From Sphingopyxis sp. H050 (GTDB lineage Bacteria; Pseudomonadota; Alphaproteobacteria; Sphingomonadales; Sphingomonadaceae), in contig NZ_LNRZ01000004.1 of assembly GCF_001468265.1 (NCBI RefSeq), forward strand, positions 186,001 through 250,000: 64,000 nt of DNA, in the 5' to 3' direction. The notes under the pieces are model-generated. The model worked only from the letters and a program-made list of their open reading frames with translations, was not told the DNA's origin and did no database searches. The position numbers and the translations under genes are program-made. Shown piece after piece: positions 4,385 to 7,685 of this stretch (position 1 is the first letter of the stretch; every line of letters starts with the position of its first letter).

Positions 4385-4790
4385 ATATCTGCAAACGGGC
4401 GGCGAAGAACCCGCGGTCACCCTCGACGCCTTTCTTGAGCAGTCGAACGCGACCGCGGTGCGGCTTGAACCCGATGAGGATGCGCGCGCGCTGATCCCCT
4501 TTCTCGACCGGCTCGCGCTGATCGAGGTGGCGTTCCCGAAGTTCCGCGACGGCCGCGGCTATTCGTCGGCGCGCATCCTGCGCGAGGCGGGCTACACCGG
4601 CGAGCTGCGCGCGCAGGGCGACGTGCTCGTCGATCAGATCGCCTATATGAAGCGGTGCGGCTTCGACAGCTTCGCGCCCGAAAAGCCCCTCAATCCCGAC
4701 GATGTCGAGGCGGCGCTGACCCGCTGGCCCGCACATTATCAGGGCGCCGCCGACGGCGCGGTGCCGATATGGAAGTTAAGGCATGGCTGA
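4377..4790 (+). CDS. DUF934 domain protein of the sulfite reductase operon
   Basis: A 137-residue cytoplasmic protein of the DUF934 family, described in databases as an oxidoreductase-like partner encoded next to cysI. It carries the family pattern KFRDGRGYSSARILRE and a C-terminal FDSFAPEKPLNPDDVEAAL region. It has a single cysteine in this copy and no obvious cofactor motif. The start codon lies inside the end of cysI (8-bp overlap) and the end overlaps cysH by 8 bp, a strict translational chain. The function is unknown; involvement in electron delivery to CysI is inference from conserved context. Confidence 0.82.
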   Translation: MVEYLQTGGEEPAVTLDAFLEQSNATAVRLEPDEDARALIPFLDRLALIEVAFPKFRDGRGYSSARILREAGYTGELRAQGDVLVDQIAYMKRCGFDSFAPEKPLNPDDVEAALTRWPAHYQGAADGAVPIWKLRHG

Positions 4791-5583
4791 CGTGAAAACC
4801 TCTCCCCCTGAAGCCGCCGACCGCACCCGCGACCGGATCGACGTCGCGCCGCGCTTCACGCAGGCCGATGTCATTCGCCTCAACAACCTCTTCCGAGGCC
4901 AGGACGCCGCCGAGGTGGTCGCGAGCGTGATCGGCGCAGGGCTGCTCGGCGAAACCGCGATCGTCTCCAGCTTCGGCGCCGAAAGCGCGGTGCTGCTCCA
5001 TCTGGTCAGCCGCGTTGCGCCCGACATGCCCGTGCTCTTCCTCGACACCGGCAAGCATTTTCCCGAGACGCTCGCCTATCGCGACGAACTCGCCGCGAAG
5101 CTCGGCCTCAACATCGTCAACCTGACCCCCGATGCCGAAGAACTGGCAAGCAAGGACGCGACCGAGCTGCGCTGGTCTTACGACCCCGACGGCTGCTGCG
5201 AAATCCGCAAGGTGAAGCCGCTCGAAAAGGCGCTGACCGACTTCGACACCTCGATCACCGGCCGCAAGGGCTTTCAGTCCTCGACCCGCACCGGCCTGCC
5301 GCGCTTCGAACTCGACGGCAGCACCGGCCGCCTGAAGTTCAACCCGCTCGCCAACTGGAGCCGCGACGACCTCGACGCCTATTTCGACGCGCACGACCTG
5401 CCGCGCCATCCGTTGGAATCGCAAGGCTATCCCTCGATCGGCTGCTCGCCCTGCACGTCGAAGGTCCAGCCGGGCGAAGACCCCCGCTCGGGCCGCTGGC
5501 GCGGCTGGGACAAGACCGAATGCGGCATCCACGAGGCGGTCACCCCGATCGACGATAATCCCGCGAACGACCCGGCGTTCTGA
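4783..5583 (+). CDS. cysH: Assimilatory adenylyl-sulfate reductase, 4Fe-4S type
   Basis: It reduces activated sulfate (APS, possibly PAPS) to sulfite with thioredoxin as donor. The ATP-pyrophosphatase-like N-terminal motif SSFGAESAVLLHL is followed by the CC pair at C138-C139 and CSPC at C221-C224. These four cysteines bind a 4Fe-4S cluster and mark the APS-reducing bacterial branch. The redox-active Cys is C247 in KTECGIH. The length of 266 residues is normal. It is the last gene of the SUMT-DUF2849-cysI-DUF934-cysH operon and is followed by palindromic repeats. Confidence 0.92.
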   Translation: MADVKTSPPEAADRTRDRIDVAPRFTQADVIRLNNLFRGQDAAEVVASVIGAGLLGETAIVSSFGAESAVLLHLVSRVAPDMPVLFLDTGKHFPETLAYRDELAAKLGLNIVNLTPDAEELASKDATELRWSYDPDGCCEIRKVKPLEKALTDFDTSITGRKGFQSSTRTGLPRFELDGSTGRLKFNPLANWSRDDLDAYFDAHDLPRHPLESQGYPSIGCSPCTSKVQPGEDPRSGRWRGWDKTECGIHEAVTPIDDNPANDPAF

Positions 5584-5606: not shown

Positions 5607-5634
5607 CGTCATCCCAGCGAAAGCTGGGATCGCT
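5607..5634. repeat. Left 28-bp inverted repeat flanking GIY-YIG gene
   Basis: This copy is the exact reverse complement of 5999-6026. Its core is itself a hairpin, ATCCCAGC-GAAA-GCTGGGAT (5611-5630), flanked by CGTC and CGCT. It lies 25 bp before the nuclease start codon. Confidence 0.9.
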
Positions 5635-5659
5635 GGCAATCTTGCGCTAAGCCGTAGGC

Positions 5660-5950
5660 ATGAACCGGGGCGGGTATGTTTACATCATGACCAACAAGTC
5701 GCGCGGTGTGTTATACATCGGCGTCACGAGCCAGATCGAAGCCCGGACCTTTCAGCATCGCAACGGAACGGGTTCCGCCTTTTGCAAGAAATATGGGTTG
5801 GACAAGCTCGTGCTTGTCGAGACCTTTCCGACGATCGAGGAAGCCATCGCGCGCGAGAAGGCCATGAAGGCCTGGAAACGCCAGTGGAAGATCGAGTTGG
5901 TCGAGGCATCCAATCCGAGCTGGGAAGATTTGACGGCACACATTTTATAG
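5660..5950 (+). CDS. GIY-YIG family nuclease
   Basis: A 96-residue stand-alone GIY-YIG domain of the UvrC/URI type, cutting DNA by a single-metal mechanism in known relatives. Visible landmarks are YVYI (residues 6-9), LYIGVT (the YIG element, residues 18-23), the Arg in the EARTFQHRNG segment, and the conserved Glu in AIAREKAMKAWKR, followed by the NPSWEDL tail typical of this small family. There is no specificity domain. The gene sits alone between cysH and dnaB, boxed by perfect inverted repeats, an arrangement that recalls repeat-associated nuclease or transposase genes. A role in moving or maintaining the repeat is inference; a housekeeping repair role is the alternative. Confidence 0.88.
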   Translation: MNRGGYVYIMTNKSRGVLYIGVTSQIEARTFQHRNGTGSAFCKKYGLDKLVLVETFPTIEEAIAREKAMKAWKRQWKIELVEASNPSWEDLTAHIL

Positions 5951-5954
5951 CCAT

Positions 5955-5979
5955 CGTCACAGCGAATGCTGGGACCGCT
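5955..5979. repeat. Degenerate copy of the flanking repeat
   Basis: CGTCACAGCGAATGCTGGGACCGCT has the orientation of the left copy at 5607 but is three bases shorter and carries point changes that spoil the hairpin. It starts 4 bp after the nuclease stop codon. Confidence 0.7.
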
Positions 5980-5998
5980 ATCGTTCATCAATCTCGCT

Positions 5999-6026
5999 AG
6001 CGATCCCAGCTTTCGCTGGGATGACG
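5999..6026. repeat. Right 28-bp inverted repeat flanking GIY-YIG gene
   Basis: Perfect reverse complement of 5607-5634, with hairpin core ATCCCAGC-TTTC-GCTGGGAT (6003-6022). It lies between the nuclease gene and the end of the convergent dnaB gene, 17 bp from the dnaB stop. Confidence 0.9.
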
Positions 6027-6043: not shown

Positions 6044-7555
6044 TCACTCATAATCGGCGTAGGCCATACTCTCGTCGGCCAGATCGCTGAACTTCGTCGT
6101 CTTCGCCTCGAAGTGCATGCGAATCTTGCCCGTCGAGCCGTGGCGTGATTTGGCGACGATCACCTCGGCGAGGCCGAAGACGCGCTCCATCTCGGCCGCC
6201 CACTCTTCGTGCTGCGCGTGGATCTTCACATCGTCACCCTCGACCGGGCGCTTGGGTTCGCGCGCGGCGACATAATAGTCCTCACGGAACACGAACAGCA
6301 CCATGTCGGCGTCCTGTTCGATCGAGCCCGATTCACGAAGGTCGGAGAGCTGCGGGCGCTTGTCCTCGCGGCTTTCGACCTGACGGCTGAGCTGCGACAG
6401 TGCCATCACGGGGACGTTAAGTTCCTTCGCCAATGTCTTCAAACCGCGGGAGATTTCGGAAATTTCCTGAACGCGATTGTCGCCGCTCTTCGACGAGCCC
6501 TGCAGCAGTTGCAGATAGTCGACGATGATGAAGCCGATGCCGTGGCGGCGCTGCAGGCGGCGCGCGCGGGTACGCAGGCTCGCGATCGTCAGGCCCGGCG
6601 TATCGTCGATGAACAGCGGCAGGGTCTGGAGCGCCTGCGCGGCGCGGCTGAGCTGCTGAAACTGCTCCTTGCTGATCTTGCCCATACGCAGCGCCTCGCC
6701 CGACACTCCCGACTGTTCGGCGAGGACGCGCGTCGCGAGCTGATCGGCGGACATTTCGAGGCTGAAGAAGGCAACCTTCGCGCCCATATTCTTTTCAGGC
6801 GGGATGCCGTCTTCCTCGTCGCGGCGGAAGCGTTCGGCGGCGTTATAGGCGATGTTGGTCGCGAGCGAGGTCTTGCCCATGCCGGGACGACCCGCGAGGA
6901 TCATCAAGTCCGAATTGTGCATACCGCCGATCTTGGCGTTCATGCTGCCGATGCCCGTGGTGATACCCGACAGGTGTCCGCCCGAATTGAGCGCGCGCTC
7001 GGCCGCCTGCAACGCGGTCAGGCTGGCGGCGCTGAAGCTCTTGACCGATCCCATCTCGGCCTCGCCGCCCGCAACGCGATAGAGCGCGGTTTCGGCTTCC
7101 TCGATCTGCGCCTGCGGATCGACGCTCTCGCTCGTGTCGAGCGCGCTGTCGACGAGGGTGCGGCCGACACCGACGAGTTCGCGGAGCAATGCGAGGTCGT
7201 AGATTTGCCGGGCAAAATCGCGCGCGCCGATCAGCCCCGCGCCGCTGCCGGTGAGCTGCGCCAGATAACCGACCCCACCGACCGCCTTCATCGCCTCGTC
7301 GGCCTCGAAGAATGGCTTTAGGGTGACCGGCGTCGCAATGCTGTTGCGCTCGATCAACGCCATCGTCTGCTGGAAGATGCGGCCGTGGAGCGGCTCGAAG
7401 AAATGCGCGGCATTCAATTGAACGGGCAGATCCTCGACGACTCGGTTGTCGATCAGGATCGCGCCCAAAAACGCGGCCTCGGCCTCGATATTACGGGGTA
7501 ATTGGCGTTCTTCCCCGGCAGGGGCCGGGGTCGGAAAGAGTGCGAGTTCAGCCAT
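6044..7555 (-). CDS. dnaB: Replicative DNA helicase DnaB
   Basis: The ring helicase that unwinds DNA at the replication fork using ATP. The N-terminal DnaB domain (PRNIEAEAAFLGAILIDN) is followed by the RecA-like C-terminal domain with Walker A GRPGMGKTSLATNIA, Walker B FIIVDYLQLL, SQLSRQVE and the DLRESGSIEQDADMV region. At 503 residues from the start at MAELALF it has the family's normal length and no intein. An in-frame start 12 bp earlier (MKIAMAEL) is possible. It is transcribed away from UPF0262, and the 130-bp gap between them must hold both promoters. Confidence 0.95.
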   Translation of the reverse strand: MAELALFPTPAPAGEERQLPRNIEAEAAFLGAILIDNRVVEDLPVQLNAAHFFEPLHGRIFQQTMALIERNSIATPVTLKPFFEADEAMKAVGGVGYLAQLTGSGAGLIGARDFARQIYDLALLRELVGVGRTLVDSALDTSESVDPQAQIEEAETALYRVAGGEAEMGSVKSFSAASLTALQAAERALNSGGHLSGITTGIGSMNAKIGGMHNSDLMILAGRPGMGKTSLATNIAYNAAERFRRDEEDGIPPEKNMGAKVAFFSLEMSADQLATRVLAEQSGVSGEALRMGKISKEQFQQLSRAAQALQTLPLFIDDTPGLTIASLRTRARRLQRRHGIGFIIVDYLQLLQGSSKSGDNRVQEISEISRGLKTLAKELNVPVMALSQLSRQVESREDKRPQLSDLRESGSIEQDADMVLFVFREDYYVAAREPKRPVEGDDVKIHAQHEEWAAEMERVFGLAEVIVAKSRHGSTGKIRMHFEAKTTKFSDLADESMAYADYE

Positions 7556-7685
7556 GGCGATCTTCATGCGTCGAAGCCGGACGTGGCGCAATCGACGATG
7601 TCGCCCGGCATATCATAACTGTGGAATGCTGTGAATAAGTCGCCCTCTTGCCCTTCGCGGCGCGGCAAGTAGAAGCCGTAGCAGC

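Follow-up and report, generated by a model that had tools for sequence, protein, structure and literature searches.

A GIY-YIG nuclease gene enclosed by CGTC-tagged REP hairpins in Sphingopyxis, a candidate counterpart of the REPtron

Results

A nuclease gene between inverted hairpins

We analysed a stretch of 64,000 nucleotides of DNA from Sphingopyxis sp. H050, which is called the window throughout. Two convergent genes of the window, cysH (4783-5583, + strand; phosphoadenylyl-sulfate reductase) and dnaB (6044-7591, - strand), flank a unit of 420 bp, the parts of which are listed below.

5607..6026, strand not applicable: entire 420-bp unit, consisting of REP, nuclease gene and REP dimer
5607..5634, + strand: left CGTC-type REP hairpin (tag CGTC, stem ATCCCAGC, loop GAAA, tail CGCT)
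5660..5950, + strand: gene of a GIY-YIG nuclease of 96 aa (PF01541)
5955..5979, + strand: degenerate REP lacking 3 nt of its 5' arm; first half of the downstream head-to-head dimer
5999..6026, - strand: right REP hairpin, which reverse-complements 5607-5634 exactly and forms the second half of the dimer
5955..6026, strand not applicable: head-to-head REP dimer (REPIN-like), a layout also seen at 19 of the 20 type-A sites of genome G028

We observed that the left 28-mer is CGTCATCCCAGCGAAAGCTGGGATCGCT and that positions 5999-6026 are its exact reverse complement over 28 nt. Both outer REPs consist of an 8-bp stem and a 4-nt loop, just as a preliminary description of this DNA had claimed for inverted repeats around a GIY-YIG gene. 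The degenerate third copy, which the same description had placed after the gene, was found at 5955-5979 and is the dimer partner of 5999-6026. Folding with DNA parameters gave z-scores of -3.5 and -3.9 for the outer hairpins and of -6.3 for the dimer (5955-6026). The inverted similarity of the left and right repeats reaches 44 nt at 86%. With up to 3 mismatches, the 25-nt core occurred twice in the 64 kb, while 0.00 occurrences were expected (100 shuffles).

The nuclease

The window protein matched PF01541 with an E-value of 1.6e-14. Ten residues (Y8, N12, G21, R29, H33, F41, L50, E54, K70 and N85) were invariant in 48 aligned homologues and E66 was nearly so; we take some of the invariant residues to be those of the GIY-YIG active site. 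The AlphaFold model of the nuclease had a pLDDT of 93.9. Foldseek returned no PDB match to this model at E 0.001, and the best solved folds, UPF0213 (1zg2, E 0.0014) and Slx1, had weak E-values; 1zg2 was also retrieved by sequence search. The UPF0213 or YhbQ-like GIY-YIG proteins (PDB 1zg2, 1ywl) resemble the window nuclease in size and fold but are only distantly related to it (31% identity over the fold match). NCBIfam returned no name for the window protein. An identity as a GIY-YIG homing endonuclease was rejected because the gene occupies the space between the cysH and dnaB stop codons, outside any intron or intein.

The repeats fit the CGTC-tagged REP superfamily

Di Nocera 2013 (PMC3733652) describes CGTC REPs as repeats with a terminal CGTC (or TGTC/CCTC) tag, arranged mostly in head-to-head dimers and known from five phyla. 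Their stem is 8-9 bp long with A-T pairs at the first and second positions, the loop has 4-5 nt, and the unpaired tail of most of them, not all, fits CCA. Neisserial dRS3 (CGTC-1) and rickettsial RPE-6 and RPE-4 are members. As judged from their sequence, the window repeats fit this superfamily: they share the CGTC tag, an 8-bp stem starting with A and T, the 4-nt loop and the head-to-head dimers. Their tail is CGCT instead of the usual CCA, which does not exclude them, since CCA is described for most CGTC REPs and not for all (PMC3733652); several other nuclease clades of the genus do carry the CCA tail. A further difference is that Di Nocera 2013 found no transposase associated with CGTC REPs, whereas a GIY-YIG gene is associated with the repeats here.

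The tag itself is not universal. By a simple test, 61 of the 102 genus repeats parsed among the matches listed had CGTC, 13 had another GTC and 28 had neither, which is a point against the nuclease as partner of CGTC REPs, and clades E and F have mostly GTG or TGT at the tag position.

We counted the repeats in the genome of the window's own strain (G000, 4.36 Mb). The 28-mer, with up to 3 mismatches, gave 6 matches and its reversed-pattern control none. A looser pattern of the same design gave 139 matches against 2 for the control; these are matches and not elements, because some hairpins match on both strands. Many of the looser-pattern matches come in inverted pairs spaced by about 50 bp.

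The commonest of the stems counted in this genome was TCATCCCGGCGNNNGCCGGGATC (CCGGC), with 40 matches at up to 1 mismatch. The matching clade-I nuclease was absent among the own-genome matches listed, which speaks against a nuclease cognate to its repeats, and the TCATCCCGGCGNNNGCCGGGATC repeats may be an orphan family.

Nuclease genes are generally linked to inverted repeats

For each locus the two 300-bp flanks of the gene were compared in inverted orientation without gaps (+1/-2), and a best score of at least 14 was taken as positive; in the final run flanks were measured from the homology match. Inverted repeats across the gene were present at 126 of 130 genus homologues (30 + 100 regions from the top of the list, among the matches listed). 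Of 295 named loci the best 80 were examined, and 48 of these had inverted repeats across the gene as well; this set partly overlaps the genus set (e.g. L013, L094). Positives numbered 19 among the 20 nearest named loci and 29 among the other 60, which are more distant and come from many phyla. Controls were rarely positive: 2 of 215 among the other ORFs at the named loci, and none of 55 in the window. The preliminary description had named homologues generally unlinked to such repeats as a finding that would speak against it; on the contrary, the homologues are linked, and the association of the nuclease with inverted REPs is general.

The remaining 32 of these best 80 named loci were below the threshold, which we count against a nuclease cognate to its repeats, and some of them carry repeat fragments, e.g. 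TGTCATTGCGAG. The own genome carries five small GIY-YIG genes, four of them flanked; the fifth (L002) was not, and it was also not matched by the window protein. In an earlier run, with gene ends taken from ORF calls, 107 of 129 genus loci among the matches listed scored at least 14. That run missed L004 and L005 of the own genome because the chosen start was upstream of the REP.

The stem type follows the nuclease

We built a tree of 102 genus nucleases with a parsable hairpin, drawn from the 107 positives of the ORF-call run (among the matches listed). The apical stem type required 16 changes on this tree, with a minimum of 12 and a shuffled mean of 65.9 (0 of 200 shuffles as low). The tree rests on a short alignment and leaves 46 of its 98 inner branches open, and near-copies that share a site add to the clustering. 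In the same tree one change each was sufficient for CCAGC (13 rows, the window's type), CCGGA (9) and CTGAA (3). CCCGC needed 8 changes and CCGGC 4; therefore both stems recur in separate clades, and this was counted against the cognate-nuclease reading. The Mantel correlation between protein and repeat distance was 0.26, and the largest value in 500 permutations was 0.10.

Stem type and nuclease also coincided between genomes. Beyond the unit itself, the median number of type-A REPs was 2 in the 15 unit-bearing genomes and 0 in those without it (p = 0.002, kinship ignored). Type-A REPs were nonetheless found in 29 of the 65 genomes without the unit, a further point against a cognate nuclease. 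Nucleases of clade I and clade C accompanied their own stems (p = 0.001 and p = 0.03, respectively, kinship ignored), where the genome sets scored as being without a clade may hide unlisted paralogues. For four mismatched pairings, also with kinship ignored, three p values were 0.08-0.21 and one was 0.03 (unit-bearing genomes with type-C REPs), the last being a point against the cognate-nuclease reading.

The cysH–dnaB site across the genus

We compared the cysH–dnaB junction across 80 genomes of the genus. A match to cysH was obtained in 79 of them, two of the matches being weak; 77 junctions were read, 74 of them at both ends. The site was filled by the unit in 15 of these 74 genomes. The open 96-aa frame was retained in 13 of the filled copies, one was frameshifted (G051) and one was internally deleted between the REPs (G048). 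Four of the 15 copies were inverted (G008, G051, G060 and G063).

The other 59 junctions had a spacer of up to 20 bp (12 junctions), 32-140 bp (39) or 263-760 bp (8). A perfect 7-bp hairpin was contained in 19 of the 39 mid-length spacers, and several more hold CGTCATTGCGAG-type repeats by eye. In four genomes (G030, G019, G043 and G062) the gene was absent and the site contained just one type-A hairpin, symmetric and with a tag at each end. To judge from its sequence, such a scar is what a deletion between the outer REPs, or of a plain dimer, would leave. In G018 the gene was absent as well and a type-A dimer lay at the site.

The absence of empty sites from every relative had been named as a second result that would contradict the preliminary description, and 59 of the 74 junctions are without the unit. 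Sites without the unit do exist, but divergence of the short spacers has left their joints blurred at single-base resolution. By eye we did not observe any target duplication, as expected of an insertion sequence or MITE, at the window site or at the G028 sites.

All 15 type-A unit copies found in the genus occupy this one site, which we again count against the cognate-nuclease reading. Among ten clades (97 units, among the matches listed), seven were at one site, clade B1 was at 2, clade C at 5 in 10 units and clade H at 6 in 9; flanks were short for most loci, and the numbers of sites are possibly too high. Gene movement is rare at best, since the type-A copies share one site and seven of the ten clades are single-site. 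The preliminary interpretation is supported in part: sites without the unit exist, but all 15 copies sit at one site and no target duplication was evident by eye. We regard the evidence for mobility of the 420-bp unit itself as only suggestive.

On a dnaB tree the unit was scattered: its presence required 13 changes, against a shuffled 13.8, and 190 of 500 shuffles required no more. The identities of nuclease and dnaB did not correlate in 14 genomes (rho = 0.06, p = 0.33). These values gave no support to simple vertical inheritance of the type-A unit together with its site; the test is weak, because dnaB varies little (median identity 89%) and many tree forks are open. Exchange of the unit between lineages fits the scattered presence, but dnaB resolves species poorly.

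The junction is a hot spot in its own right, as several unrelated repeat families or longer inserts were seen there among the relatives (L153-L229). Inserts of 359-360 bp were present at the junction in G033, G029 and G045, two of them with an open frame of 119 codons.

REP dimers are dispersed and differ between relatives

Genome G028 has 20 type-A sites besides the unit, and at 19 of them the REPs form a head-to-head dimer of roughly 72-84 bp. We compared three of these dimer sites with 14 genomes, of which 14, 14 and 12 were readable. The type-A dimers recurred in one, two and two relatives, respectively. In the remaining relatives the place was taken by dimers from a different family, by a short hairpin or by other DNA, or was empty. 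At the L346 site, the extracted stretch measured 53 bp in G000 against 140 in G028. On the basis of these sequence comparisons, the REP dimers look mobile.

The type-A dimers of G028 are mostly hetero-dimers, in which an ATCCC half is paired with a GCCCC or GTCCC half (16 of 19; L330-L349). At the L332 site, two further repeat types take the position that REP dimers have in other relatives, in G001, G011, G063 and G026 and in G032, G071 and G055; one has GTGTCGAGCGAAGTCGAGACAC arms and the other is longer and starts near CTCCCCCTTGATGGGGGAGG.

Homologues in Neisseria and in plasmid and phage records

The window protein matched 43 plasmid and phage records, and surroundings were read for four of them. 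A homologue of 43% identity in N. gonorrhoeae lies within an array of 16 dRS3-like hairpin repeats. Flanking repeats were also present at the homologues of Novosphingobium pNL2 (score 31) and of an Aeromonas record (score 22). The homologue of a Rhizobium phage had no flanking repeats (score 8), which we count against the cognate-nuclease reading. By their size, two PLSDB "plasmids", L398 (N. gonorrhoeae, 2.17 Mb) and L400 (Aeromonas caviae, 4.9 Mb), look like mislabelled chromosomes.

Discussion

The GIY-YIG nuclease as a partner of CGTC REPs

We consider it probable, at about 0.6, that the GIY-YIG nuclease is the cognate enzyme of the CGTC REPs that bracket it, and that the unit is the GIY-YIG counterpart of a REPtron, which maintains or spreads REP dimers. 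RAYTs mobilise GTAG REPs, and their REPtron (TnpA-REP) shares with our unit one small gene between inverted hairpin REPs, a REP type that tracks the enzyme type, and head-to-head dimers dispersed genome-wide. The differences are a Y1/HUH tyrosine transposase there and a GIY-YIG nuclease (PF01541) here, and a GTAG tag there and CGTC here. The preliminary description had suggested the logic of REP-associated tyrosine transposases with a GIY-YIG enzyme instead. This comparison is well supported by the linkage at 126 of 130 loci (among the matches listed), by stems that follow the nuclease tree, and by dispersed same-stem head-to-head dimers, whose occurrence varies among relatives at the three compared sites.

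Most likely, the nuclease would recognise the REP hairpin on single-stranded DNA and would cut at or near the CGTC tag. Through such cutting REP dimers, and now and then the gene unit as a whole, might be copied, retained or exchanged, and repair and joining would be left to the host. A bolder proposal is that these nucleases are the missing dedicated mobilisers of CGTC REPs across phyla and that the unit of about 400 bp is itself mobile, spreading horizontally into favoured intergenic sites without a transposase or recombinase of known type. We put it forward tentatively, as possible rather than probable.

If each repeat type is matched to a nuclease, the question of how the repeats spread or persist becomes a simple test of cleavage and genetics. 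A second chemistry, that of GIY-YIG enzymes, would be added to a role so far assigned to tyrosine transposases, and the many natural pairs of nuclease and hairpin make a recognition code open to study. The pairing also suggests that a widespread class of bacterial repeats, for which PMC3733652 reported no dedicated transposase, has a partner enzyme after all.

Relation to Ssn and alternative explanations

The repeats of Neisseria are relevant here for another reason. A 2025 article in Nature Communications reportedly described, from work in Neisseria, the Ssn family of GIY-YIG nucleases, which cut single strands at specific sites, and the enzyme is said to act on a Neisseria repeat present in hundreds of copies. 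As reported, Ssn would resemble the window nuclease in being a small GIY-YIG protein, and the neisserial homologue of the latter sits among dRS3 repeats. If that description is correct, the window locus would be a member of the Ssn family in a REPtron-like arrangement. The pairing of a GIY-YIG enzyme with a repeat is then probably known in part; the link to CGTC REPs, the matching of stems and the dynamics of the unit seem to be new. A literature search of partial coverage, in titles and the openings of abstracts, found no report of GIY-YIG genes paired with REPs, and PMC9465073 names both a RayT and a GIY-YIG gene in a list of clade-specific genes.

Ssn also suggests the best of the other explanations, namely that the nuclease tunes DNA uptake or recombination by site-specific cutting of single strands, as is said of Ssn. 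The REPs would then be target marks spread in another way, e.g. by recombination, and the unit would not be transposable. The neisserial homologue (43% identical) among dRS3 repeats, the single site kept by most clades (among the matches listed) and the type-A REPs in 29 of 65 unit-less genomes all agree with this. We nevertheless find it unlikely, because gene units flanked by their own repeats, stems matching the nuclease tree and dimers at sites where relatives lack them are expected of a system that spreads repeats.

The gene might instead be a selfish one that rides the REPs. Homologous recombination, in the REPs themselves or in cysH and dnaB, would then swap it between lineages, and it would not drive the REPs. 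Its scattered presence on the dnaB tree (13 changes, shuffled 13.8), the uncorrelated identities of nuclease and dnaB (rho = 0.06, p = 0.33) and the inversion of 4 of the 15 copies could be read in this way. So could the four empty sites with a single symmetric type-A hairpin, as a deletion between outer REPs would leave. This explanation leaves unaccounted for a stem sequence that follows the nuclease tree at different sites, and we judge it improbable.

There is very little to be said for hairpins that are mere transcription terminators or junction hairpins, with an unrelated nuclease beside them. The site does lie between the convergent cysH and dnaB, and in some relatives it is taken by unrelated hairpins. 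Terminators alone were rejected on account of the linkage, as inverted repeats were found at 2 of 215 other ORFs against 126 of 130 nuclease homologues (among the matches listed), and of the finding of no terminator-like site at the window locus.

Mobilisation of the REPs in trans by a RAYT or another Y1 transposase, as RAYTs do for GTAG REPs, is the least credible alternative, and a RAYT was rejected as the mobiliser, since PF01797 (Y1) had no match in the own genome, was matched in only 15 of 80 genomes, and a search with one narrow pattern found no CGTC-REP-like hairpin at any of 17 Y1 loci. PF01797 was likewise without a match in G028 and G071. Three of the 17 Y1 loci had an inverted-repeat score of 14-20, with unrelated sequences. 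Y1 loci L410, L414 and L417 share AATTACGGTGACAG inverted repeats, which are distinct from CGTC REPs.
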